The notes under the pieces are model-generated. The model was not told the origin of the DNA. It saw only the letters and a program-made list of their open reading frames with translations, and ran no database searches. Positions 100 through 12,663 of a stretch of DNA of 22,548 nucleotides are shown here, piece by piece. How positions within the stretch are numbered: position 1 is the first letter of the stretch; every line of letters starts with the position of its first letter. Position numbers and translations under genes: made by a program. Source of the stretch: a virus. The stretch covers positions 1 through 22,548 of the IMG/VR virus record IMGVR_UViG_3300046787_000151; one strand, written 5' to 3'.

Positions 100-1229
100 G
101 CTTCATTCCTTACCAAAACTACGGCGCAGGTCTTAGCGCACTGGGCCCTGTTCAGTCCATGTCTGACCGTAACGAAAACCAAACTTTGATGGCCAATAAC
201 GGTCAGATGTTTGCATCTGGTGGTATCACTTCACTTGCTAAAGGTGGTGACACAAACGCACTGCCCAAATACAAGTACGACCCAGTGACCCAGACGTACA
301 CTTTGGAAGGCGAGGACGAAGCCGCCACCGCGATGGAGGAAGAGCTCCTGCGGAGAAAGCGTGCAGCTGAAGCGGCAGGCGGTAGTGGAAGCGCAGCGCC
401 ACAAAGAACGGCGTGGGACGATATGACCTCCGCGCAACGAGCAGCATATTTTGCTGACAACCCAAGAATGGGGCAAGTTACACGCGGGCTTATGGGTGCG
501 CTTGGACGCACCGGAGTGGGGGCTGCTCTGCAATTCTTTAACCCCCAAGGATGGGGAGAAGCGGATGCGATTAGTCGCGGTTTTGATCCAAAAGACACCA
601 GCTTTGGTCGCGGGAGCACATTTTTTGGCTTGATCCCCGGGATGGAGGCTGTGCCAAAGGCTGGCGTGGATGTTTATGGTTACGGTGACGGCACCATGAA
701 CACAAACTACGGCGGTTCTTTGAACCGTGACACACTGAGTGGTTATCAAACAGGGCAGAACGGTCTGCCTAGCGAACTCGGGGGCAGTGCTGCTCCCGGT
801 TCAGGCGGAGCTGCCGACGGTGTTGGTCCGAGCGGTTTTGGTTCAGACTACGGCGATACCTCAATGGGTGGCTCCAGCTCCTTTGACAGCGCTTACGGAT
901 ATGCGCAAGGCGGTCTTTCCGCGCTGGCCCGTGGTGGCATGAGCCACTTGGGCGACTACTCTGATGGCGGTCGTTTGTTGCGCGGCCCCGGTGATGGCGT
1001 GTCTGACAGCATCCCTGCGACTATTGGTAATAAGCGTCCAGCTCGTTTGGCCGACGGTGAGTTTGTGGTCCCAGCTCGCATCGTCTCTGAGTTGGGCAAC
1101 GGCTCGACTGAAGCTGGCGCTCGCAAGCTGTACGCCATGATGGACCGAATCCAGAAGGGCCGTAAGAAATCTATCGGCAAAGGCCGCGTTGCAGTTAACA
1201 GCCGTGCGGACAAAAACTTGCCAGCATGA
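96..1229 (+). CDS. Glycine-rich phage structural protein with conserved C-terminal GPGDGxSD module
   Basis: This is a 377-residue protein. I start it at 96 rather than 39 because GAGAGG lies five bases upstream and the upstream frame-1 stop overlaps this ATG. Residues 39-51 (FASGGITSLAKGG) and 270-281 (AQGGLSALARGG) carry the same glycine-flanked motif. Residues 92-101 and 228-262 are low-complexity Gly/Ser/Ala. The C-terminus (about 297-352) contains GPGDGVSDSIPATI, then ARLADGEFVVPARIVSELG and a short helix ending in YAMMDRIQKGR. From memory, this C-terminal module recurs in virion-region proteins of marine and freshwater phages, often as an unannotated structural protein. No enzymatic motif is seen. 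The gene starts a tightly coupled structural run and its stop overlaps the GNAT-like gene by four bases. The structural role is inferred from neighbours and family recall, not from a known domain. Confidence 0.85.
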   Translation: MSFIPYQNYGAGLSALGPVQSMSDRNENQTLMANNGQMFASGGITSLAKGGDTNALPKYKYDPVTQTYTLEGEDEAATAMEEELLRRKRAAEAAGGSGSAAPQRTAWDDMTSAQRAAYFADNPRMGQVTRGLMGALGRTGVGAALQFFNPQGWGEADAISRGFDPKDTSFGRGSTFFGLIPGMEAVPKAGVDVYGYGDGTMNTNYGGSLNRDTLSGYQTGQNGLPSELGGSAAPGSGGAADGVGPSGFGSDYGDTSMGGSSSFDSAYGYAQGGLSALARGGMSHLGDYSDGGRLLRGPGDGVSDSIPATIGNKRPARLADGEFVVPARIVSELGNGSTEAGARKLYAMMDRIQKGRKKSIGKGRVAVNSRADKNLPA

Positions 1230-1630
1230 AAATCCAATTCGTCCCTCTAGAGTGGGTGAACCAGACATGGCCTCAAGTTGAGGCCTTTGTCGCATCTGCG
1301 CTGGACCATTCCAAGGGCGAATACACAGTTGAGCATGCCAAGGTCATGGCGACCAACGGGCAGTGGCAGTTGCTGGTGGCAACGACGGATAAAGGTATTG
1401 AAGGCGCTGCGCTGGTGCAGTTTTTTAACCGCCCGAATGACCGGGTGTGCTTTATCGTGGCGATTGGCGGTAAGCTCGTCAGCAGTAGCGAAACCTTTGA
1501 ACAGTTGAAAACTTACGCGGCCTCTAACGGGGCTACTTGCATTGAGGGCGCTGCGCGGGAAGCCGTTGCACGCTTATGGACACGGTACGGATTCACTGAG
1601 AAGTACCGAATTGTAGGAGTGAAATTATGA
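1226..1630 (+). CDS. GNAT-fold (acetyltransferase-like) protein
   Basis: This 134-residue protein is coupled at both ends by ATGA overlaps (1226-1229 and 1627-1630). The order of predicted elements fits the GNAT fold: an N-terminal helix containing a Trp (WVNQTWPQVEAFV), a strand ending in WQLLVATTDKG, a strand pair around GAALVQFFN and CFIVAIGGK, a helix FEQLKTYAASNGATC, and a C-terminal helix-strand REAVARLWTRYGFTEKYRIV, where the RYGF turn is typical of the family. The usual acetyl-CoA loop (Q/RxxGxG/A) is not clear, so it may be a non-catalytic GNAT. Small GNAT-like genes occur among virion genes of some podoviruses, and this may be a structural or morphogenesis factor. The substrate is unknown. 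Confidence 0.75.
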   Translation: MKIQFVPLEWVNQTWPQVEAFVASALDHSKGEYTVEHAKVMATNGQWQLLVATTDKGIEGAALVQFFNRPNDRVCFIVAIGGKLVSSSETFEQLKTYAASNGATCIEGAAREAVARLWTRYGFTEKYRIVGVKL

Positions 1631-3882
1631 GCGGCGGAACCACCGAAACCAGATCAAACACCATTGCCCCCTATATGGAGGAAGCGGCCAAGACGCAGCT
1701 TGGCAAGGTAATGGCGTTGACGGACACTAACCAAAATCCGTACCAGCAGTATGGGGGCAACCGCATCGCGGAGTTCAACCCGATGCAGCAGCAGTTCTTC
1801 CAAGGGGTGCAGAATCTAGGCACTTCTGGGGCTGTCGGTCAGGGTATTGATACTGCGGGTCAGGCAGTTGGCCGTGCGCTCAACACTTCTTACAACCCCT
1901 ACCAAACAGGTCAGTTCGGCGCTCAGGCTAGTCAGTACATGGACCCCTACATGCAGAATGTGGTGGACATCCAGCAGCGCGAAGCCCAGCGTCAAGCCGA
2001 CATTGCAGGTACACAGCGCGGAGCGCAGGCCGTGAAGTATGGTGCGTTTGGCGGTAGCCGTCAGGCGATTTTGGACGCAGAAGCCAATCGTAACTTGGCC
2101 ATGCAAAAGGGTGACATCCAAGCCCGTGGTTTGCAGGACGCCTTTACACGCGGTCAACAGCAGTTCAATACCGAGCAGGCTTTGGGCGAGGCATCTCGTC
2201 AATATGGCGCAGGTCTGGGCTTGAAGGGTTTGGACACTGCCTTGGCAGGGGCAGCTCAGCTCGGCGGTTTGGGCGCTACTCAGTTCGGCCAGCAAAAAGA
2301 CATTCTCGGTTTGCAGCAAGGCGTTGGCGCACAGCAGCAAATGCAAGAGCAGACCAAACTCTCCCAAGACTACGAGGATTTCCTCAACAAGCAGAAGTAT
2401 CCATATCAGCAGTTGGAGTTTGCGTCCAACATCATGCGCGGTACACCGTACAGCTCGACCACGTCTATGTACAGCCCCGGCCCAACTGCACTGCAGTCTC
2501 TTGGTAGCCTCGGCACCGCTGCGTATGGCTTGAGCAAGCTCGGCATGTTTGGTGCCAAAGAAGGCGGTACTGTGTCTTCCTACGCCGTTGGTGGTAGCGT
2601 TGACAGCGCCCAGAACATTGAAGCCATCGTAGAAAGACTGTCGGATTCCCAATTGAAGCAGGCCGCTGACTTGGCCCAAGCCCGTGGGGACGCAGAACAA
2701 CTGCAGATCATCCAGCAAGAAATGGCCTCACGCGCTTCCGAGCGCGGCGGCATGATGGGCGCGTTCAACCAACTACCTCAAGAGCAGCAACAGCAAATGA
2801 TGGCTGGCGGCGGTATTGTGGCTTTTGCGCAGCCAACTGCGGAGAACAACTGGAGTCTGGTTTCCGAGCCCGAGGATGAAGATGAGGATGCCCCACAACC
2901 GGTGGCCCCTCGCATACCTGTTGGCCGGGGTGACCCGAAGGTTTATGCAGAGTCTATGTCGGGGCTGCAAGCACTACAGAAAAAACTGGCCGACGATAAG
3001 GGTTACTCCCCGCTGACTGAGGCGCAAGAAAAGGCTCTGTACGACCGCTCCACAGCACGTGGAAAAGAAATTTACGGCGACGTGCTGTCAAAAATTAAAG
3101 CCAACATTGATGCGCAGCGCAATGAAAGTAAAGGGTCTTTGGATCAGGCTAAAGGCCTTGCCGCGCTTGAAGCCGCCGCTGCATTGAGCGAGGGTCGTGG
3201 CCTTGTACAAGGGCTCGGTAAAGCTGGCCGTGCGTTTGGCCGAACCTATGGCGATGCGTTGCGTGCGGATAGAGAGCAAAAACGTGCGCTGGCAAGTATG
3301 GATTTGAACTTGGCCAAGGCCGAAGCCGACCAACGTATGGGCCTGCACGACAAAGCGGAAGCGCAAATTACCAAGGCCAACGCCAACCGTGAGAGAGCGT
3401 ACAACGCCGGGGTGAGTAAAAACAAAGCGCTGGCAAACATGCTGTATAACAGCGGTCGTCTTGCGTTGCCCCCCGCACCTGTTAAGTCTGGCTCTGGCGC
3501 TCCCAAGCCCCTGAAGCTCGCCGAGCAGCTCGCTGCAGCAGAAGTTGCACATGAGACCAACCCCACAGATGCTACGTTGGCAAACGTAACCGCGCTTCGC
3601 CGTGCTGTGGCTCAGACCAAGACTTCCGATTACGGTCCAACTCGTGCGAGTGACGTTGGGGGCCAGCAGGACATCGTGCTGGGCGATCAGATCAGTAAAG
3701 CTCAGCAGAAATTGAAGTTTACGCCTGAGTACGTCAAGGCTACTCCAGCGGAGAAAGCCCAGATGCTGCGGGATGAGGCCAATCGAGTCCGTCAAAACGC
3801 GGGTAGAAGTGCGGGCGTAAACAATAATTCCCCACGGGCCCCTCAAAACGATTATAGTAACCTCTGGGGCGGCAGTAATTGA
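1627..3882 (+). CDS. Gln/Ala-rich virion structural protein, possible DNA-ejection protein
   Basis: This 751-residue protein is preceded by TAGGAG and overlaps the previous stop as ATGA. Residues 1-60 include QYGGNRIAEFNPMQQQFF. Residues 70-260 are helical and rich in Gln, Ala and Gly. The stretch SQDYEDFLNKQKYPYQQLEF, followed by a Pro/Ser/Tyr-rich patch, is a pattern I recall from unannotated structural genes of aquatic phages. Glycine motifs (GGTVSSYAVGG at 313-323 and AGGGIVAFA at 393-401) echo those of the first structural gene. The second half (about 440-751) is charged and helical, with a Gln/Glu-rich linker before it. It lies directly upstream of the giant protein, the place occupied by T7 gp14/gp15-type internal virion proteins. 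That comparison rests on position and composition only, since no T7 homology is visible by eye. Confidence 0.82.
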   Translation: MSGGTTETRSNTIAPYMEEAAKTQLGKVMALTDTNQNPYQQYGGNRIAEFNPMQQQFFQGVQNLGTSGAVGQGIDTAGQAVGRALNTSYNPYQTGQFGAQASQYMDPYMQNVVDIQQREAQRQADIAGTQRGAQAVKYGAFGGSRQAILDAEANRNLAMQKGDIQARGLQDAFTRGQQQFNTEQALGEASRQYGAGLGLKGLDTALAGAAQLGGLGATQFGQQKDILGLQQGVGAQQQMQEQTKLSQDYEDFLNKQKYPYQQLEFASNIMRGTPYSSTTSMYSPGPTALQSLGSLGTAAYGLSKLGMFGAKEGGTVSSYAVGGSVDSAQNIEAIVERLSDSQLKQAADLAQARGDAEQLQIIQQEMASRASERGGMMGAFNQLPQEQQQQMMAGGGIVAFAQPTAENNWSLVSEPEDEDEDAPQPVAPRIPVGRGDPKVYAESMSGLQALQKKLADDKGYSPLTEAQEKALYDRSTARGKEIYGDVLSKIKANIDAQRNESKGSLDQAKGLAALEAAAALSEGRGLVQGLGKAGRAFGRTYGDALRADREQKRALASMDLNLAKAEADQRMGLHDKAEAQITKANANRERAYNAGVSKNKALANMLYNSGRLALPPAPVKSGSGAPKPLKLAEQLAAAEVAHETNPTDATLANVTALRRAVAQTKTSDYGPTRASDVGGQQDIVLGDQISKAQQKLKFTPEYVKATPAEKAQMLRDEANRVRQNAGRSAGVNNNSPRAPQNDYSNLWGGSN

Positions 3883-3912
3883 GCGAGTAGCGCCCCGTAA
3901 CAAGGGGTTGCT

Positions 3913-6900
3913 ATGGCGAAAAAGTGGGCTGAAGTTGTTGATAGTGAAGCGTTTCAAGCATTGCCGGATGACCAAAAAGAGGTTGCCCGGAACCAATACT
4001 TCGACAGTGTTGTAGCCCCACAAGTGCCGGAAACTGACCTTGACGCAGTCCGTCAGCAGTTTCTCTCCACCACTTCTCTCGCCCCAAAACGGGCCCCCGC
4101 AAAAGCAGCCCCCGCCCCACAAGGCGGTGGGTTTGAAGTTACCAACCCAGCAGGGGATGGTTTCGGCGCGTCCATTATGGATGCCGCCCGTGCGCCTAAG
4201 CGCGAAAGCGTACTTGAAGATCAGAAGCTGCCCGGTCCTTTGCCGACTGAGGACAAGATGATTCGCCCCGAATTTGTAGCGGGTCTGGAAGCACAACTCA
4301 ACGCAATGCCAGAAGCCCAGCGCACCGCTGCGCTCGGTAAGATGCTCCAACGCCCAGACGTTTACGGGCGTGCGGCCAAAGTCATCCAAGGTCGGTATGC
4401 GGCTAGGGGCGAGATGCAGCCCACGGCGCTCCAAGATTTGACCGACCTGCGTCTGGAGCAGCAACAAAAACGCTTTATCAAACAGGGCATGAACGCTGAT
4501 GCGGCCCTGAATCTTGCTCGTCAACAGGCCCAACGAGGTGTTGCTCGCCCCGACCTCCAGCAGATGAGTCGGGACATTGAGGGTGAGATTGCCGACCAAG
4601 AAGCAGCTCGGATGCGCGAGGAGACCAAGGACGCTGGGTTCTTTGGTCGTGTTGGTGAAGAGACTAAGGCGCAGTACAAACAGGCTGGGCTCGGCCTGAT
4701 GAATGTTTTTGCCGACCTCACTGGCGATAAACAACTGCAGAGCGATCTGGCGGGTAGCCGCCGTATGGTTGAGGCTGGACAACAAGCTATCCCCAAGGGC
4801 AGTAGCATTTTTGAGCGCTCGGCACAAGGAGCCATTTCCTCTTTGGCTGGGCAGACACCCATGATTGCCTTGAGCGTGCTCACAGGTAGCCCTGCCCCTG
4901 TTCTGTTGCAGGCTGGCGTTCAGCAGTTTGGTGATGCCTATGGCCAAGCCCGAGCTGCGGGGCAATCCCCAGAAGCGGCGGCGGCACGCGCTATCCCTAT
5001 GGCTGCAGCGGAGATTTTCTTCGAGCGGTTTGGTATGGAGAAGGCGCTTGCTGGCTTGACCAAGCACGTAGCCAAGTATGGGTATGACTCGGTGCCAAAG
5101 TACGTTGGAGAGGCGGTCCTGAAAGAACTCCCCGCAGAAATGGCTACCACCGCCACTCAGTACGGTATCGACATCGTACCCGGAGTCGGCCTCAACAAGA
5201 ACCCCAGCTTGGTTGGTTTGTACGAGCAGTTGGAAGAGACACTGCGCCAGACGGTTATTCAAGCAGGTGTTCAGGCGGGCACAACTGTCGGGGCTTCAAA
5301 AGGTGTTCAGAAACTGTCAGAAGCACTGCAGTCCAACGCACCAAAATACGAGCGCCCAGACGACACAGGTTACTACCAAGCCCTGCTTGCTGCAAAAGAA
5401 AAAGGGTTTTTGGCCCCCGAGCGCCGCAACCAAATGGTGCCCCCTGCCGCTCCCGAGGGTCGGGTCGAGCCTACATTCGACGAAGAAAAGTTCACTGCCC
5501 CTACCGTTCAGCCGACTCCTACAAAGGAAGAACAGCTGGCCGCACTTACTGCCGAGATTGAAGCTACGGGTATACCCGCAGAAGATGCGCAGGTGCAAGC
5601 CCAACAAATGTTAGCCATGCGGGAAGCAGAAGAGCGTAAGGCTCTGGCCCCTCGTATTGTTGAGCTGACACGGGAATTTGTGGACAACGGCATGGAGCCG
5701 CAACAAGCCAATCAACTGGCTATCCAGCAAGCTACAGAGGAGGCACAAGCAGATGCGCAAGCCGAACGAGAAGGCGCTATCAGTGCCCAACCAACTGTCA
5801 GTACCGCAGATAGAGCAGGCGCTGGAGTGGCTGGACAGCCCGGTGGAGTCGCCCCCACCGCAAGAGTTGGAGAAGCTGAGCCAACTGGAGTGGTACCTGC
5901 TGGACAAACTGCTGCAGGAACTGTGGCGGGAGCGGGCGAGAAACCCACTGCACTGACCGCTGAGCCACCGGTGCCGGAGGGTTACGTTCGCGTGTACCAC
6001 AGCGGGGCTAAAGGCGAAGGGGAATTTGGCCGTTGGGCAAGCACCGACCGCAAATACGCGGCCAACTACCGTCCAAATCTGCCACTGTTTTACACCGACA
6101 TCCCTGCGGATGACCCACGAGTAAACAACCCGGATTACCCAGATACCCAAGGTGTTAAGCAGGGGTTTACGTTTAACTTTGAACTGACCCCCCAAGAAGC
6201 CACCACGCTTACGGAAACCCCACGAGATACAGAAGCACCCAAAACCAAGCGTGGTCGCCCCACCGTCTTGACTGCGGAAGAAAAGCAGCAGCGTGCTGAA
6301 GACAAGCGCCCCGTGCAGGCTGCAAAAGCCAAGGCCGAGCGGTCTCTCATTCGCCTAACAAACAAACTGGACGAGCTGGCTACGCTGCCGGATGAAGGTG
6401 ACTTTGAGACGGACGAGGATTACGAAGCCGCTGTAGCCGAACACCGAGCCCAGCGCCGTGAGACCATTAAGAGCCTGCTGCAGTTGCAGGCTGATCCGTT
6501 GCTTCGTGGTACTAAGGTAGGCGAGCGCGTCAAAGTTGCGCTGGCCCGCCCCGACGTTTCCGAGAAAGAGAAAGCCGACCTCAAAGCCGGTATCGAGGCG
6601 CAAAAGCGTGCGCAGGCTGCGGCTAAAGGTGAGCAGGCAAGTTCTTCCCGTGTGGGCAAAGACATGCCTGACACTGCGTTTAACAAGTTCACCAACGGTG
6701 TTCAGGCTCTGAACCACATCATCAAGACAGGCAACGACTTCCAGAAGATGCTCGGCAAGCGCCTGCGCAACTTCGTGACCAATGTCAGATTTGTGGTTAT
6801 TGAAGAAGGCCAAGAGCTACCTGCTCAATTGAAGAAACCAAAGAACGCCCGTCAATGGGAGCGCTCCATTGGGTTGTATATCGAAAACTTTGACACCGGC

Positions 6901-9900
6901 GACCGTGTAATTTACGTGCGCGGCGCATCCTTTGGCGAGAACCAAGGGATCAACAACCTGACCATCCTGCACGAGCTGCTGCACGCAGCCACAAACCGCA
7001 AAGTTGCTCTGGCTATTGAAGCAATCCAAAAAGGGGTCGGCCTCAACTCGCCTTTGGTGCGTTCGGCAACCGACTTGCTCCGCACAATGAACAGTGCCAT
7101 CAGCACGTTCAACGAGTTGGAAAGAAAGAAGGAACTGCCACAGCACCTCCTAGACCTCGCTGATTACGGCGCGGTGTTGCAAGACCCACGCGAGTTCATT
7201 GCCTACGGCATGACCGACCCAGACTTCCAGCAGTTCTTGATGAAGGCCAAGGGCTACGAGGAAGACACCTCGTACTTCAAACGCTTCGTGCGCGGCATCC
7301 GTGAGTTGTTCGGCATGGGCGAGGACACCACCAACGCCTTCACCGACTTGATCGTTGTAACCGACACCATCCTGAGCACTCGTGCACCGCAGTACCAAGC
7401 TCGTGGGGAACAAGCCAGCTCTATGTTTGGCCTGTTTGGTGGCAAGAAAGCGCCGGAAGCCGACGAACCGCTGCCCGATGAAACATCCGTCAAGGCCAAA
7501 CCAAGCGCAAACGTGCAGCGTCTGGCCAAGATGCTCGGCTCCAAGTTGTACGGCACTCCAAAAGATATTGCGCTGGTGTCGGTCAAAGAGTTGTTCCAGA
7601 ACTCATTCGATGCCATCAAGGGTTCGTTGGAGCAAGGACAGCTGACCAGAGGTAGGGTTGACGTAAAAATTGATCGTAGTGACCGCTCTATTCGAGTTGT
7701 GGATAACGGCCTCGGCATGCCGACCAGCGTGATGGGCAATCAGTTCCTGCAGATTGCTGGTACTGTCAAAGAAACAAAGCGTGCATCCGGTGGCCTCGGC
7801 GTTGCCAAAATGCTGTTCTTGTTCGAGAACAAGCAGCTCGAAGTTGTTTCTCTGCGCGATGGCAGGCTCTCCCGCATGGTTACCACCGGGGATGATTTGA
7901 AAGCGGCGTTGGATGACCCAGACCGCGCACCAAACATTGAAGTAACTACTGACCCAGAAACAATCCAACGGTACGTGGAGACTTTGTTCCCCGATGGCCA
8001 CGGCACTTCTGTGACTGTGACTATCCCTGAGACGTTCACCAACGAGTCCACTGGCGAGAAGGAAAAAATTAACTTTGATACGTGGGACATCAAGAACGCC
8101 CCCGTGCTGGAATACAGCCCATTGTTTGGCGACATTGACGTTAATGTTGATTACGGGTTCGGCCCAGAGACATACCCTATCGGCGCTAACTTCCCAGCCA
8201 ATGACTACACCCCGTTTGCGAACGTCAACTTCGCATGGGGCACTGCGCGTATCTACGTATCCAAAGAGAAGACAGACCCGCCCTATAAGGGCAACACCCA
8301 CATACTGTCCAACGGTTTGTGGCAGTTCGACACTTCGCTCAAAGATCGCCCCGGATTCGAGGGTAAGCAAATTAAGCGTACCTTCTATGTAGACGTGACC
8401 CCCGCTGAGAACGTCAAGCCAGAAGATGCTGGGTATCCGTTCGACTTGAACCGCCAGAACTTCTCGGCTGTAGCCAAAGACGACTTCGGCAAAATCTTCA
8501 ACTACATCACAGCCATCTACAGCCAGCTTGATCTGGCTGCTGGTGTCAAAAACTTCGGCACGGTGCAGTACGTCAATTCTGATGGCACATTGACCGATGC
8601 AACAACTCTGGAGCCCAGCGCTCCTCCGACCGATAACGCGTTCACGCTGATCAAACCCGGCGATGAGGTAGAAGTCCGTGACGGCGTGCTGTACGTAAAC
8701 AACCGCCCACTACCTGAGCTGACCGCCAAAGATTTGGAGAAGACAAGTATTCGGGTTGACGAGTTGACTATCCCGCAGGATGAGATCGACTCAACCAAGG
8801 TCATGGTTCATGACAACACGGAAACAGAAACAAGGGCACGGGTGCCTGAAGAAGACGCGTTAAAGGCCCTCAAGGAATTGGAAAGCAAAGACCCCACTGG
8901 GTATTCTTTGACCGATCTGGGTAACGGTCGGTATTGGATGAACGCGTACGGCGATAACGGCGAAGTTCTTATCCATGCGTCTGGCACCCCTTCGGAACTT
9001 GTGGAGTGGGCGATCTCCAACGGCATCTCCGTCGAAACCCCTACTGGTGCTCCTCAGTCCCTGTCCGATCTTGCGCGTGATCAGTTCGGCGCTGCGCGTG
9101 TCAATAAGTACTTTGCGGCAATCGGCGATACGTTCCACCTGCTGCGCGATGCTTTGTTGTCGGTCGATAACTCGTACTCTGGTATGGCGGACCAAGCCTT
9201 TGGCGTGAGTATCGACAACGAGTACTATGGTGTCAGCATCATGGTACCGTTCAAGGGCATGTTCATCAACCCGGCTACGACTGATCTGCGCGATACCCCT
9301 GCGCAAGTTGCAGTGTCTATGATCGGCACGATGATCCACGAGATGGCTCACTACCGCGTGCGTAACCACGGTGGTAGCTTTGCGTCTGAAATGCAGAAGA
9401 TTATGACTCTGCTTGACACGCACCCATCTTTCGATTTACAACAGGCCAAGAAAGACCTGACTAAGTTCATCACCGACAACGATGACATCTTCCAATTTTT
9501 GAATAAGGAGTTCCGCAGTGGCAATCTCAAACCTCGTGGCAACCGCTTCCAAGACGCTAGCTACCAACAAATCGGAAATGAAGGCGCTCCTGATGCAATG
9601 GAAAGCGAACGCCAAACAGGACAGGGAGGACCCGGAGTACCGGAACAGCTTGGAGCAAGCGCTCAAGGTACTGGACAAGTCGGCCAGCCTGCCGGAAATG
9701 GTGGCCAAACTACGCCGGTTGGAAATGCAGTCCGTACCCAGCAACAGCTGAACCGTGCGGTAAAAGTAGCGAGCGCTAAATTTGACGAGTCCCAAAACGG
9801 GGACGAGTACAGCAAGGCTGTGTCATTGCTTCAGATGATGCAGGACCCTCGCAAGGTTATCCCAGCTATTCGTGACTTGTACAAGCGCATGAACATGGGT

Positions 9901-12663
9901 GCGCGTAATGCGCTCACCTACGCAATGACCACTGACTTCATGGTCGAGATGGCTGGTAAGGACGTTCCCGAGCTGCGCAACACTGACAAGCTGCTGCAAC
10001 AAATGAGCGGCATGACCCAAACGCTTCTCAAGGCGGCTGGCGATCTGACCAACGACATCTCCCGTGCGTTCCGCAAAGACCCAACCCTGCGCAAGAAGCT
10101 GGACAGAATCACGCATGAGGCTACCTTGGCCGAGTACGACCCAGCGGACAAGTCCCAGACTGTTCGCAGCAAGAGGCTCGACCAAATGTATGCCGACCTT
10201 GGCGAAGAAGGTCAGCGCGTTTACAACCGCATCAAGCGCCACTTCGAGGTTCTGTCAAACTACTTCACCAAACTGCTCGATGATCAGATCACGCAGTCGG
10301 GCTTGCCAATTGCAGAGCAGGCCAATCTGATCAAGAAGATCAGAGCGATGTACGAGACCGGAAGCAAGATCACTCCGTACTTCCCACTGGTGCGCCGTGG
10401 TGATTTCTGGTTATCGATCGGCACAGGTGAGACCCGCAAGTTCTTCATGTACGAAAGTATGGGCGAGCGTGACCGCGCAATGCAGGGTTTTGCCGACGAG
10501 AAAGTGAAGCAGAAGTCTGGCGAGTCGAACGCCGCGTTCCAAAAGCGCCGTGCTCAGAACATGCAGGACTTGCTGGAGTCAGAAGAGTTTGTGTACGGCA
10601 ACGACATCAGCGCCTTGCGCAAAACCACAGTCGGCAACAGCCAGCTTCTGTCTGGTGTATTTGCCGAGATCGACAAGACTGGGGCCAAGACTGACTTCAC
10701 CCCAGAAGCTAAAGAGCAGCTCAAGGATGCGGTGTACCAGCTCTACTTGCAGACAATGCCCGAGCAGAGTTTCCGCAAGCAGTTCATCCATCGTAAGGGC
10801 TTCGCTGGTTTCCGCACCGACTTGCTGCGCAACGTGGCCGACACGACCACCAAGATGGCAACTCAGCTTGCCCGGATCAAGTACGCTCCCCTGCTGCGCA
10901 ACTCGTTGTCTCAGGCTCGTGACTCGATCAAGAACCGCCCAATGTATGAGCCCTACGTCTCTGCATTTGAGCGCCGTGTGTCTGATGCGTTGTCGGCTGG
11001 CAAACCATCTATGGCTGAGAGCATTGCGGCCCTGTCCAACAAGTTCTCGTTCATCTTCTATCTGGGCGGTATGTCCTCGGCGATGCTTCAGCCGTTGAGC
11101 TTGTTCCAAACCGGCATCCCTGTGCTTACAAAGTACGGTGTCGGCAAAGCCTATGCTGAGATGGGCAACATGCTCAAGGTGTGGAACGAGTTCGGCGTGA
11201 TGCAGAAGAACGCTGACGGTACTTTCTCTTGGGTGCCCCCATCCATTGAAAACGTTACTCGCAGCGAAGACGAGCGCCGCGCCATCAAAGACATGATGGG
11301 CCGTGACCTCACCACTTCTACCTACGCACGTGACGCGCTGAACTACAAAGCTACGCCGACTGACGACATCTCATCTCCCAAGGTGCAGTTTGCCAAGGAC
11401 ACGGTCAGTGCTTTGGTGCTCGGCGGGTTGATGCACTCGACTGAACGCTTGTCTCGTGAGTCCATGTTCCTTGCAGCGTACCGACTAAACCGCAAAGCAG
11501 GGCGGGATCACGAAACCTCGGTGGACAACGCTGTTTACGACACCAACGAAGCGCTTGGTAACTACGGCCAGTACAACCGTCCTGACTTCATGCAGGGTGC
11601 TCCGGGCAAAATCCTCACACAGTTCATGATGTATCCCGTGTACATGACTGCGTTCTTGGGCAGAAACTTTGTCGAGATGATCAAGCCAATGAACGGTCGC
11701 ACCCGCTGGGAAGCGTCCAAGAAGTTCTTCGGCACTATGGGCCATACATGGGTGCTCGGTGGCGCAGTTGGTCTGTGGGGTTTCAGCACAGTCATGGGCT
11801 TCCTCGGCGCGATGTGGAACTCCCTCAAGGATGACGAATGGCCTGAAGATGTTAAGAGCATGAGCTACGAGTTGTGGTGGCGCACCGTCTGGCTCAGGGA
11901 ACAGCTTGGTGGTACTCAAGTTGCTGGATATGATCTTGCCGACATCATTGAGCGTGGCCTTGTCAACGCCATTACCGGTGCAGACTTTTCTGGCCGTACG
12001 AGCTTGAACAACATGTGGCTGCGCGAAACCAAGGAAACTGCAACCCCACGCGAAAGCGCGATAGCTCTGGCGGTGGAGAAGGCAGGTCCAACAGCCAACA
12101 TGATCTTGTCTTGGACTGACGCATATAGCGCGTTCATGGACGGTGACTACAAGAAGGGTGTCCTCAAAGCCGCCCCTGCTGGTTTCCGCAACTACATCAA
12201 CACGTACAACCTGTGGAAGGAAGGCGCAAAGGACAACAAGGGCACTGAGATTCTGTCTCGGGATGCGTTCACCACGGGTGACTTGATCTTCCAAGCAGTC
12301 GGCTTCCGCTCAGACCTTCTTGCGAATACACAGTACGTGACCTTCAAAGTCATCGGCCTTGAGCAGAAGATTCTGAACGAGCGCACAAAGATTCTGAACC
12401 GACTCGACCGTGCGTACCGGGAGCAAGACTTCGACGACTACACCAAGTCTTACAAGGACATGGACAAGTTCAACCGCAAGTACCCAACGTACGAAATCTC
12501 GTCAGACAATCTCGTGGAGTCGTTGGAGCGCAAGCAGGAGCAACGAGCTTCGTCTTTCCGTGGGGTTACGCTCACCGAGAAGAACGTGGCACCGTTCTCA
12601 GAAGTTCTGCTCCCCTCTCGGATTGCCGCAGACAAGCGCGAAGAGAAGAACCGCGCCAAATGA
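3913..12663 (+). CDS. Giant polyvalent virion protein: ART-like, two zincin peptidases, GHKL ATPase, LPD38-like C-terminus
   Basis: This is a 2916-residue protein whose start has AAGGGG five bases upstream. Residues 1-50 resemble the N-termini of internal virion proteins. Residues 297-345 hold a hydrophobic helical stretch. Residues 690-760 (VYHSG, WASTDRKYAANY, LFYTDIP) look like an ADP-ribosyltransferase fold, tentatively. R780-G-R-P783 is AT-hook-like. H1020-E-L-L-H1024 marks a zincin. Residues about 1190-1540 form a GHKL ATPase with E1226/N1230 (N box), D1264-N-G-L-G (G1) and S1292-G-G-L-G-V-A (G2). H1809-E-M-A-H1813 with H1819 and GGSF marks a second, SprT/YgjP-like zincin. Residues 1950-2916 are helical, with hydrophobic segments at about 2378-2406 and 2605-2635, and resemble LPD38-type phage modules. 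Polyvalent proteins of this sort are known from phages and conjugative elements and are thought to enter the host with the DNA. Packaging and ejection here are inferred. Two small genes are nested in the +1 frame. Confidence 0.92.
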   Translation: MAKKWAEVVDSEAFQALPDDQKEVARNQYFDSVVAPQVPETDLDAVRQQFLSTTSLAPKRAPAKAAPAPQGGGFEVTNPAGDGFGASIMDAARAPKRESVLEDQKLPGPLPTEDKMIRPEFVAGLEAQLNAMPEAQRTAALGKMLQRPDVYGRAAKVIQGRYAARGEMQPTALQDLTDLRLEQQQKRFIKQGMNADAALNLARQQAQRGVARPDLQQMSRDIEGEIADQEAARMREETKDAGFFGRVGEETKAQYKQAGLGLMNVFADLTGDKQLQSDLAGSRRMVEAGQQAIPKGSSIFERSAQGAISSLAGQTPMIALSVLTGSPAPVLLQAGVQQFGDAYGQARAAGQSPEAAAARAIPMAAAEIFFERFGMEKALAGLTKHVAKYGYDSVPKYVGEAVLKELPAEMATTATQYGIDIVPGVGLNKNPSLVGLYEQLEETLRQTVIQAGVQAGTTVGASKGVQKLSEALQSNAPKYERPDDTGYYQALLAAKEKGFLAPERRNQMVPPAAPEGRVEPTFDEEKFTAPTVQPTPTKEEQLAALTAEIEATGIPAEDAQVQAQQMLAMREAEERKALAPRIVELTREFVDNGMEPQQANQLAIQQATEEAQADAQAEREGAISAQPTVSTADRAGAGVAGQPGGVAPTARVGEAEPTGVVPAGQTAAGTVAGAGEKPTALTAEPPVPEGYVRVYHSGAKGEGEFGRWASTDRKYAANYRPNLPLFYTDIPADDPRVNNPDYPDTQGVKQGFTFNFELTPQEATTLTETPRDTEAPKTKRGRPTVLTAEEKQQRAEDKRPVQAAKAKAERSLIRLTNKLDELATLPDEGDFETDEDYEAAVAEHRAQRRETIKSLLQLQADPLLRGTKVGERVKVALARPDVSEKEKADLKAGIEAQKRAQAAAKGEQASSSRVGKDMPDTAFNKFTNGVQALNHIIKTGNDFQKMLGKRLRNFVTNVRFVVIEEGQELPAQLKKPKNARQWERSIGLYIENFDTGDRVIYVRGASFGENQGINNLTILHELLHAATNRKVALAIEAIQKGVGLNSPLVRSATDLLRTMNSAISTFNELERKKELPQHLLDLADYGAVLQDPREFIAYGMTDPDFQQFLMKAKGYEEDTSYFKRFVRGIRELFGMGEDTTNAFTDLIVVTDTILSTRAPQYQARGEQASSMFGLFGGKKAPEADEPLPDETSVKAKPSANVQRLAKMLGSKLYGTPKDIALVSVKELFQNSFDAIKGSLEQGQLTRGRVDVKIDRSDRSIRVVDNGLGMPTSVMGNQFLQIAGTVKETKRASGGLGVAKMLFLFENKQLEVVSLRDGRLSRMVTTGDDLKAALDDPDRAPNIEVTTDPETIQRYVETLFPDGHGTSVTVTIPETFTNESTGEKEKINFDTWDIKNAPVLEYSPLFGDIDVNVDYGFGPETYPIGANFPANDYTPFANVNFAWGTARIYVSKEKTDPPYKGNTHILSNGLWQFDTSLKDRPGFEGKQIKRTFYVDVTPAENVKPEDAGYPFDLNRQNFSAVAKDDFGKIFNYITAIYSQLDLAAGVKNFGTVQYVNSDGTLTDATTLEPSAPPTDNAFTLIKPGDEVEVRDGVLYVNNRPLPELTAKDLEKTSIRVDELTIPQDEIDSTKVMVHDNTETETRARVPEEDALKALKELESKDPTGYSLTDLGNGRYWMNAYGDNGEVLIHASGTPSELVEWAISNGISVETPTGAPQSLSDLARDQFGAARVNKYFAAIGDTFHLLRDALLSVDNSYSGMADQAFGVSIDNEYYGVSIMVPFKGMFINPATTDLRDTPAQVAVSMIGTMIHEMAHYRVRNHGGSFASEMQKIMTLLDTHPSFDLQQAKKDLTKFITDNDDIFQFLNKEFRSGNLKPRGNRFQDASYQQIGNEGAPDAMESERQTGQGGPGVPEQLGASAQGTGQVGQPAGNGGQTTPVGNAVRTQQQLNRAVKVASAKFDESQNGDEYSKAVSLLQMMQDPRKVIPAIRDLYKRMNMGARNALTYAMTTDFMVEMAGKDVPELRNTDKLLQQMSGMTQTLLKAAGDLTNDISRAFRKDPTLRKKLDRITHEATLAEYDPADKSQTVRSKRLDQMYADLGEEGQRVYNRIKRHFEVLSNYFTKLLDDQITQSGLPIAEQANLIKKIRAMYETGSKITPYFPLVRRGDFWLSIGTGETRKFFMYESMGERDRAMQGFADEKVKQKSGESNAAFQKRRAQNMQDLLESEEFVYGNDISALRKTTVGNSQLLSGVFAEIDKTGAKTDFTPEAKEQLKDAVYQLYLQTMPEQSFRKQFIHRKGFAGFRTDLLRNVADTTTKMATQLARIKYAPLLRNSLSQARDSIKNRPMYEPYVSAFERRVSDALSAGKPSMAESIAALSNKFSFIFYLGGMSSAMLQPLSLFQTGIPVLTKYGVGKAYAEMGNMLKVWNEFGVMQKNADGTFSWVPPSIENVTRSEDERRAIKDMMGRDLTTSTYARDALNYKATPTDDISSPKVQFAKDTVSALVLGGLMHSTERLSRESMFLAAYRLNRKAGRDHETSVDNAVYDTNEALGNYGQYNRPDFMQGAPGKILTQFMMYPVYMTAFLGRNFVEMIKPMNGRTRWEASKKFFGTMGHTWVLGGAVGLWGFSTVMGFLGAMWNSLKDDEWPEDVKSMSYELWWRTVWLREQLGGTQVAGYDLADIIERGLVNAITGADFSGRTSLNNMWLRETKETATPRESAIALAVEKAGPTANMILSWTDAYSAFMDGDYKKGVLKAAPAGFRNYINTYNLWKEGAKDNKGTEILSRDAFTTGDLIFQAVGFRSDLLANTQYVTFKVIGLEQKILNERTKILNRLDRAYREQDFDDYTKSYKDMDKFNRKYPTYEISSDNLVESLERKQEQRASSFRGVTLTEKNVAPFSEVLLPSRIAADKREEKNRAK
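5738..5743 (+). promoter_or_regulatory. Shine-Dalgarno of the first nested gene
   Basis: AGGAGG is a full match to the anti-Shine-Dalgarno core. It sits nine bases before the ATG at 5753, which is in the +1 frame relative to the giant gene. In the giant frame the bases simply encode part of a Thr-Glu-Glu-Ala stretch, so the giant protein does not obviously require this exact sequence. Confidence 0.7.
5753..5956 (+). CDS. Nested overprinting gene 1, 67-aa helical protein
   Basis: This small gene lies wholly inside the giant gene in the +1 frame. The open frame extends back to an ATG at 5678, but only the ATG at 5753 has a Shine-Dalgarno (AGGAGG, nine-base spacer). The product has a basic N-terminus (MRKPNEK), an amphipathic helix (PQIEQALEWLDSP), a Pro-rich turn (VESPPPQEL) and a second helix (LSQLEWYLLDKLLQELWRE), ending NPLH. 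This looks like a folded helical protein rather than a shadow frame. The overlapped part of the giant protein (about residues 614-681) is Gly/Ala/Pro/Thr-rich linker. It has no signal peptide or membrane span. I recall small phage proteins with a similar helix-SPxxxPP-helix shape, but no function. It ends just before the ART-like segment of the giant protein. Confidence 0.72.
   Translation: MRKPNEKALSVPNQLSVPQIEQALEWLDSPVESPPPQELEKLSQLEWYLLDKLLQELWRERARNPLH
6625..6645 (+). other. KGEQASS junction motif, copy 1 (giant protein residues 905-911)
   Basis: The peptide K-G-E-Q-A-S-S sits in an Ala/Lys-rich linker before the first zincin domain. A near-identical heptapeptide recurs after that domain (residues 1164-1170). 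The two copies use different codons (GGT GAG CAG against GGG GAA CAA), so the match is conserved at protein level and is not a recent DNA duplication. A processing site is one possible meaning. Confidence 0.5.
7402..7422 (+). other. RGEQASS junction motif, copy 2 (giant protein residues 1164-1170)
   Basis: R-G-E-Q-A-S-S is followed by a short hydrophobic-glycine run (MFGLFGG) and an acidic Pro-rich linker that leads into the GHKL ATPase domain. Together with copy 1 it brackets the HELLH zincin domain. Confidence 0.5.
9504..9510 (+). promoter_or_regulatory. Shine-Dalgarno of the second nested gene
   Basis: TAAGGAG is a seven-base match to the anti-Shine-Dalgarno sequence, seven bases before the GTG at 9518. 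In the giant frame these bases fall within codons for Asn-Lys-Glu. Confidence 0.7.
9518..9751 (+). CDS. Nested overprinting gene 2, 77-aa charged helical protein
   Basis: This is a second +1-frame gene inside the giant gene, with a GTG start placed by the strong TAAGGAG seven bases upstream. The product begins VAISNLVATASKTLATNK (with fMet at the start) and continues as charged helix: MKALLMQWKANAKQDRED, SLEQALKVLDKSASLPEM and VAKLRRLEMQ. There is no Cys, no signal peptide and no membrane span. The giant frame over the same bases (about residues 1869-1947) is Gly/Gln/Pro-rich linker (for example GTGQVGQPAGNGGQ). The nested frame is therefore the better-looking protein here. It starts after the second zincin and ends at the beginning of the C-terminal helical module. 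Function is unknown, and I do not recognise a family. Confidence 0.7.
   Translation: MAISNLVATASKTLATNKSEMKALLMQWKANAKQDREDPEYRNSLEQALKVLDKSASLPEMVAKLRRLEMQSVPSNS

Follow-up and report, generated by a model that had tools for sequence, protein, structure and literature searches.

Comparative evidence for small genes overprinted on the linkers of a giant polyvalent-protein gene in uncultivated phages

An open reading frame (ORF) that lies wholly inside a longer gene may be a gene in its own right or only a shadow of the longer frame. The stretch of viral DNA analysed here (22,548 nt, IMG/VR record IMGVR_UViG_3300046787_000151; hereafter, the window) poses this question for a 67-codon frame, designated nested gene 1, that opens just downstream of an AGGAGG sequence within a gene for a protein of 2,916 aa.

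The giant gene and the frame nested within it

The features of the giant gene and its surroundings that bear on this question are as follows.

1627-3882, + strand: homologue of a DNA ejection protein, 751 aa, directly upstream of the giant gene (PHROG 4287, E 3e-13)
3913-12663, + strand: giant host gene, 2,916 aa, predicted DarB-like/large polyvalent protein (Pfam and PHROG matches)
5738-5743, + strand: AGGAGG, putative Shine-Dalgarno sequence of nested gene 1 (sequence, relatives, synonymous constraint)
5753-5956, + strand: nested gene 1, predicted 67-aa acidic helical protein (translation, relatives, selection, AlphaFold2 model)
6673-7320, + strand: conserved domain with a HELLHA motif, zincin-metallopeptidase-like (HExxH invariant in alignment A2)
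7579-7887, + strand: GHKL-type ATPase domain (Pfam HATPase_c_3, aa 1223-1325, 25.1 bits, cut-off 25)
9904-10290, + strand: LPD39 domain (Pfam PF18858, aa 1998-2126, E 3e-9)

Judged by its sequence, the giant gene encodes a DarB-like large polyvalent protein, because it combines the LPD39 domain (37.1 bits against a cut-off of 27), the GHKL-type ATPase domain, and HExxH motifs with a C-terminal part that is ~25% identical to DarB-like/PLxRFG proteins of isolate phages; the protein also matches the DarB-like PHROG 10089 (E 1e-53), and its HExxH region is ~28% identical to the internal virion protein gp37 of phiKMV. Polyvalent proteins have been described as a class, and zincin metallopeptidases have been proposed to process them (Iyer et al. 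2017, PMC5512222). The DNA ejection family is also found upstream of the giant gene in two related loci (L086 and L098), and the giant protein is itself presumably ejected into the host.

A first-pass annotation, made from the sequence alone, had proposed that a gene is overprinted on this giant gene, and its description of the site proved exact: AGGAGG is separated by a 9-nt gap from the ATG at 5753, which opens 67 codons ending with a TGA at 5954-5956, on the same strand as the 3913-12663 ORF, wholly contained in it and in its +1 frame. Translation of the giant frame across the overlap likewise bore out a linker rich in Gly, Ala, Pro, and Thr. The accompanying statement that shadow frames rarely show such features was too strong: when the giant gene was shuffled synonymously 1,000 times, the +1 frame over 5753-5953 was still open in 40% of the shuffled sequences, and 3.2% of them contained, at some place, AGGAGG followed by a spacer of 4 to 11 nt, ATG, and an ORF of at least 60 codons. 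Off-frame ORFs of at least 67 codons are common in the giant gene (nine observed vs. 5.6 expected from 1,000 synonymous shuffles). Within a single sequence, the open +1 frame by itself has no significance, and the single-sequence case for nested gene 1 is only mildly unusual, suggestive and not strong. Nested gene 1 is accepted here as real because of its conservation, and not because of these features.

Conservation and selection in the overlap

A search of viral metagenomes with the 67-aa protein, which the first-pass annotation had recommended, recovered 27 true relatives from IMG/VR; searching with 14 aligned members gave 182 matches there, of which the best 80 were kept. Over 100 non-redundant relatives were obtained, and each lies inside a homologous giant gene, in the frame seen in the window. 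A nested ORF with an identical frame offset inside the giant ORF was present in 107 of the 107 loci found by protein, window included; two further protein-search matches (L029 and L030) were unrelated long ORFs and were excluded. Because these first loci had been picked by the nested protein itself, an independent probe was also used, in which 80 loci were fetched by the HExxH-containing domain of the giant protein (alignment A2), which lies downstream of the nested gene; an alignment of the giant C-terminus (A3) was too diverse for searching. The nested-family profile found the ORF, with its +1 frame open, in all 70 evaluable loci of these 80; in the remaining 10, the contig begins too near upstream to judge the nested frame. 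Nested gene 1 is universal among the giant genes that could be checked. Across the 111 non-redundant loci, the +1 frame is open in every one, while the third frame is closed in 106. Stops throughout the +1 frame of homologous giant genes, which the first-pass annotation had named as grounds for refutation, did not appear. On the opposite strand, two frames are open across the short core (in 73 and 79 of these 111 loci), but the lengths of the antisense ORFs around the first loci are very uneven, which gives no support for an antisense protein.

No relative of the nested protein was found in the bacterial genome contigs scanned or in the stretches around giant or gp37-like homologues in six isolate records; in an isolate-phage collection, the window protein gave one chance-level match (E 3) and a second family member gave none. 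Two loci differ in the organization of the giant gene. In one of the 70 evaluable loci, represented by a single contig (L138), the giant frame (2-679) ends 47 nt past the nested stop and a second ORF follows at 807-4943, while the nested gene (393-632) is intact; the giant gene may be naturally split at this locus, or the contig may contain a sequencing or assembly error. In another (L089), a giant gene of 1,752 aa carries nested gene 1 without a downstream HExxH motif, so that the nested product is not strictly tied to the HExxH domain.

Selection was assessed in 214 giant-gene pairs with at least 60% amino-acid identity, drawn from the 111 non-redundant loci. Giant-frame synonymous differences amounted to 0.061 inside the nested ORF and 0.360 outside it; a comparison of this kind had been put forward as a check on the overprinting, and the suppression it revealed is six-fold and covers precisely the nested interval. 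The inside value was lower in 212 of the 212 pairs with enough sites; as the pairs share history, these counts are not independent trials, and the argument rests on the size of the effect and on its edges. In the window's clade, synonymous constraint sets in at about the Shine-Dalgarno sequence and lasts up to the nested stop; there the giant-frame synonymous rate jumps from 0.10 to 0.39. Mismatch at giant-codon positions 1, 2, and 3 was 0.25, 0.15, and 0.10 inside vs. 0.27, 0.22, and 0.45 outside, and with correction for mutational opportunity the nested frame had an N/S of 0.25 in the overlap and the giant frame one of 2.07. A chance shadow ORF with a chance Shine-Dalgarno sequence in a GC-rich low-complexity linker, which the shuffles and the abundance of long off-frame ORFs would allow, is refuted by these comparative data (conservation of the protein in over 100 relatives, the six-fold drop in synonymous differences with its matching edges, and the low nested N/S) and is almost certainly wrong.

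Synonymous constraint alone does not identify its cause, and an RNA or DNA element (a structure, packaging, or regulatory site) could also produce it. However, the variation has a three-base rhythm that fits nested codons (mismatch of 0.32, 0.23, and 0.44 at nested-codon positions 1, 2, and 3), changes that are silent in the nested frame and alter the giant protein are in 2.2-fold excess, and the constrained interval ends at the nested stop codon. The codon rhythm leads us to reject such an element, to which we give next to no credence. By its substitution pattern, the nested frame is under purifying selection, while the giant frame in the overlap looks like a passenger. In an alignment of 47 giant proteins, the linker is better conserved than the flanking regions on both sides, as expected if its conservation is carried by the nested gene. 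The first-pass annotation had envisaged a real gene over a tolerant linker; the gene stands, whereas the tolerance has to be refined, since selection acts mainly on the nested frame and the apparent tolerant linker of the giant frame is therefore largely the shadow of the nested gene.

Internal initiation and a second nested gene

The start signals of nested gene 1 are conserved among its relatives. An ATG with a Shine-Dalgarno match of at least 4 nt near the core start was found in 105 of the 111 non-redundant loci (control rate, 0.043), and one with a match of at least 6 nt in 63 of the 111 (control rate, 0.002). In many relatives the start lies ~10 codons later than in the window, at an ATG that AAGGAG precedes by six bases; some relatives combine the two positions, each with a good ribosome-binding site. 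In four loci (L041, L052, L062, and L077), two in-frame ATGs, each preceded by AGGAGG, lie 12 codons apart near the nested start, which suggests that the nested protein of this clade could start at either. One locus (L061) has a stop codon in the nested frame immediately 5′ of the nested ATG, and several others have an in-frame stop within 10 codons of the nested core.

Shine-Dalgarno-like sites can stimulate +1 ribosomal shifts, and an ORF in the +1 frame on the same strand could be reached by programmed frameshifting, which would yield a truncated giant protein with a nested tail. The Shine-Dalgarno-led start is nevertheless kept in nearly all loci, and the stops before the nested frame leave little or no room for a shift; such a product would require a continuous upstream frame, contrary to what the conserved starts and the stop in L061 indicate, and we regard it as very improbable. 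The Shine-Dalgarno-led starts and the L061 stop instead favour internal initiation, by which we strongly infer, from sequence comparison, that nested gene 1 is translated. Taken with the selection data, this makes it highly probable that nested gene 1 is a real, overprinted, internally initiated protein-coding gene.

When synonymous change was scanned along the entire giant gene within the window's clade, a second dip appeared, at 9541-9780, which is matched by a 77-codon ORF in the +1 frame (nested gene 2), with AAGGAG seven bases before a GTG.

9505-9510, + strand: AAGGAG, Shine-Dalgarno sequence of nested gene 2 (sequence, relatives)
9518-9751, + strand: nested gene 2, 77-aa basic protein, pI 9.5, GTG start (relatives, synonymous constraint)

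Relatives of nested gene 2 were found at 26 loci, all with an identical frame offset in the giant ORF, and the Shine-Dalgarno sequence and a GTG or ATG start are retained in most of the 20 relatives displayed. Giant-frame synonymous differences were 0.142 inside nested gene 2 vs. 0.503 outside it, and lower inside in 153 of 153 pairs. Nested gene 2 is thus a second real overprinted gene, in another linker of the giant gene. It was present in all 15 complete giant genes that have the ATPase motif and in none of the 81 that lack it. Its existence strengthens the view that small linker-embedded genes are a habit of this giant gene family.

The nested products and their possible role

Nested protein 1 has a mass of 8.0 kDa and a pI of 5.0. 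Its AlphaFold2 model (mean pLDDT 75, pTM 0.50) places helices at residues 17-28, 37-40, and 44-63, giving two main helices with a Pro-rich turn, in agreement with the two-helix protein read from the sequence in the first-pass annotation; the predicted helices are credible, but their packing is not. The family consensus is LS..QVE.AL.WL.SPVQ.PPP.ELE.L.Q.EWFLLDRMLQ.LL.EK..SPLQ, with L15, L27, P36, W47, and L50 (window numbering) invariant. The nested C-terminus in the 111 non-redundant loci is always Leu or Val followed by Gln or His (47 LQ, 38 LH, 16 VH, and 10 VQ). Searches of PHROGs, Pfam, and PDB sequences gave no match for the window protein and only weak, scattered matches for 84 members (best 0.002-0.006), and a Foldseek structure search with the model gave no match at E 0.001. 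Two of the weak matches were treated as chance, namely Pfam FGAR-AT_N (E 0.002, 10 members) and PHROG 5825 (E 0.0055 at best, 21 members), a family 208 positions long that was not found when searched for in 12 records including the window. With its relatives, the product of nested gene 1 makes up a new protein family, whose members are small, acidic, and helical.

We propose that the late mRNA transcribed from the giant gene offers ribosomes a second initiation site, the internal AGGAGG/ATG, from which a separate small acidic helical protein would be made in the +1 frame, and that this protein may act as a dedicated partner of the giant polyvalent protein, be it as assembly escort, chaperone, or restrainer. 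The partner role is advanced tentatively, at less than an even chance; it is suggested by the presence of nested gene 1 in every checkable giant gene, by the adjoining DNA-ejection gene, and by the way in which nested gene 2 tracks the ATPase module, although physical overlap alone would also give co-occurrence, which limits the argument. Against the role stand the lack of any match to a protein of known function or to a known fold, and the giant gene in L089, which has nested gene 1 but no HExxH motif. More doubtful is a general form of the proposal, in which the linker of each polyvalent module might encode, in another frame, a small protein escorting, restraining, or assembling that module; nested gene 1 would then go with the core giant protein and nested gene 2 only with the ATPase module.

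The nested gene may instead be the older of the two, once free between two genes that were later fused by read-through, and have a function independent of the giant protein. The passenger-like behaviour of the giant frame in the overlap would fit this history, as would codon usage in the window (typical for the nested frame and atypical for the giant frame, -0.01 vs. -0.28) and the split giant frame with an intact nested gene in L138. However, codon usage averaged over the 111 loci does not separate the two frames, no stand-alone homologue was found in the collections searched, and L138 is one contig, perhaps with a sequencing or assembly error; we consider this history possible, if somewhat unlikely.

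The targets of small acidic phage proteins often lie in the host, and the nested product could likewise serve host takeover or anti-defence, with the late mRNA of the giant gene as no more than its vehicle. The giant protein itself belongs to a polyvalent, anti-defence class (PMC5512222). Such genes are usually gained and lost freely, yet nested gene 1 is present in every checkable giant gene; because the overlap hinders loss, this universal presence is weak evidence against a host-directed function, which we judge rather unlikely.

Comparison with known systems shows both likenesses and differences. Gene E of phiX174 within D and Rz1 of lambda within Rz are nested same-strand phage genes, and an rz1 gene is annotated inside rz in phage PEp14 (L193). 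Nested gene 1 resembles E and Rz1 in being a small gene wholly inside a larger one, on the same strand, in another frame, and with its own start. Unlike them, it is not a lysis gene by any match found, its product is predicted to be acidic and helical rather than a membrane protein or lipoprotein, its host is a ~9-kb polyvalent-protein gene, and its product family occurs in no library searched. The gpG and gpGT proteins of lambda are tape-measure chaperones expressed by frameshift, and they offer a working analogy only, as small proteins whose coding region adjoins that of a giant virion protein and which that protein requires; the analogy is not drawn from sequence or fold, and expression of nested gene 1 is proposed to occur by internal initiation. 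The protein gp37 of phiKMV, which is encoded in the late region after other internal virion proteins, is similar to the giant protein over the HExxH region but is much shorter and has no nested homologue. The giant gene itself resembles DarB-like and other large polyvalent proteins in its LPD39 domain, its match to PHROG 10089, and its HExxH motifs of the zincin type (PMC5512222); the terms "overlapping" and "alternative frame" are absent from the main text of that paper. No earlier description of nested gene 1 was found in the open-access literature, subscription journals being outside the scope of the search. Nested phage genes are already known, and two module-associated linker genes of a polyvalent protein are a variant of them that is unreported in the literature searched.

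The first-pass finding holds and bears a stronger statement than it was given, since nested gene 1 represents a whole gene family that is new and unannotated. Annotation that drops contained ORFs would miss this family, even though these uncultivated phages are widespread and each member of the group that could be checked has the gene. A low-complexity linker in a giant phage protein can thus double as a gene read in a second frame, and small nested proteins may be needed to build or deliver such giant proteins. Synonymous scans of giant genes, which revealed nested gene 2, are a simple way to find more nested genes. In the window, a weaker synonymous dip at 10741-10860 (0.26, z -1.6), which may be nothing, lies within a 182-codon +1 ORF at 10550-11098.
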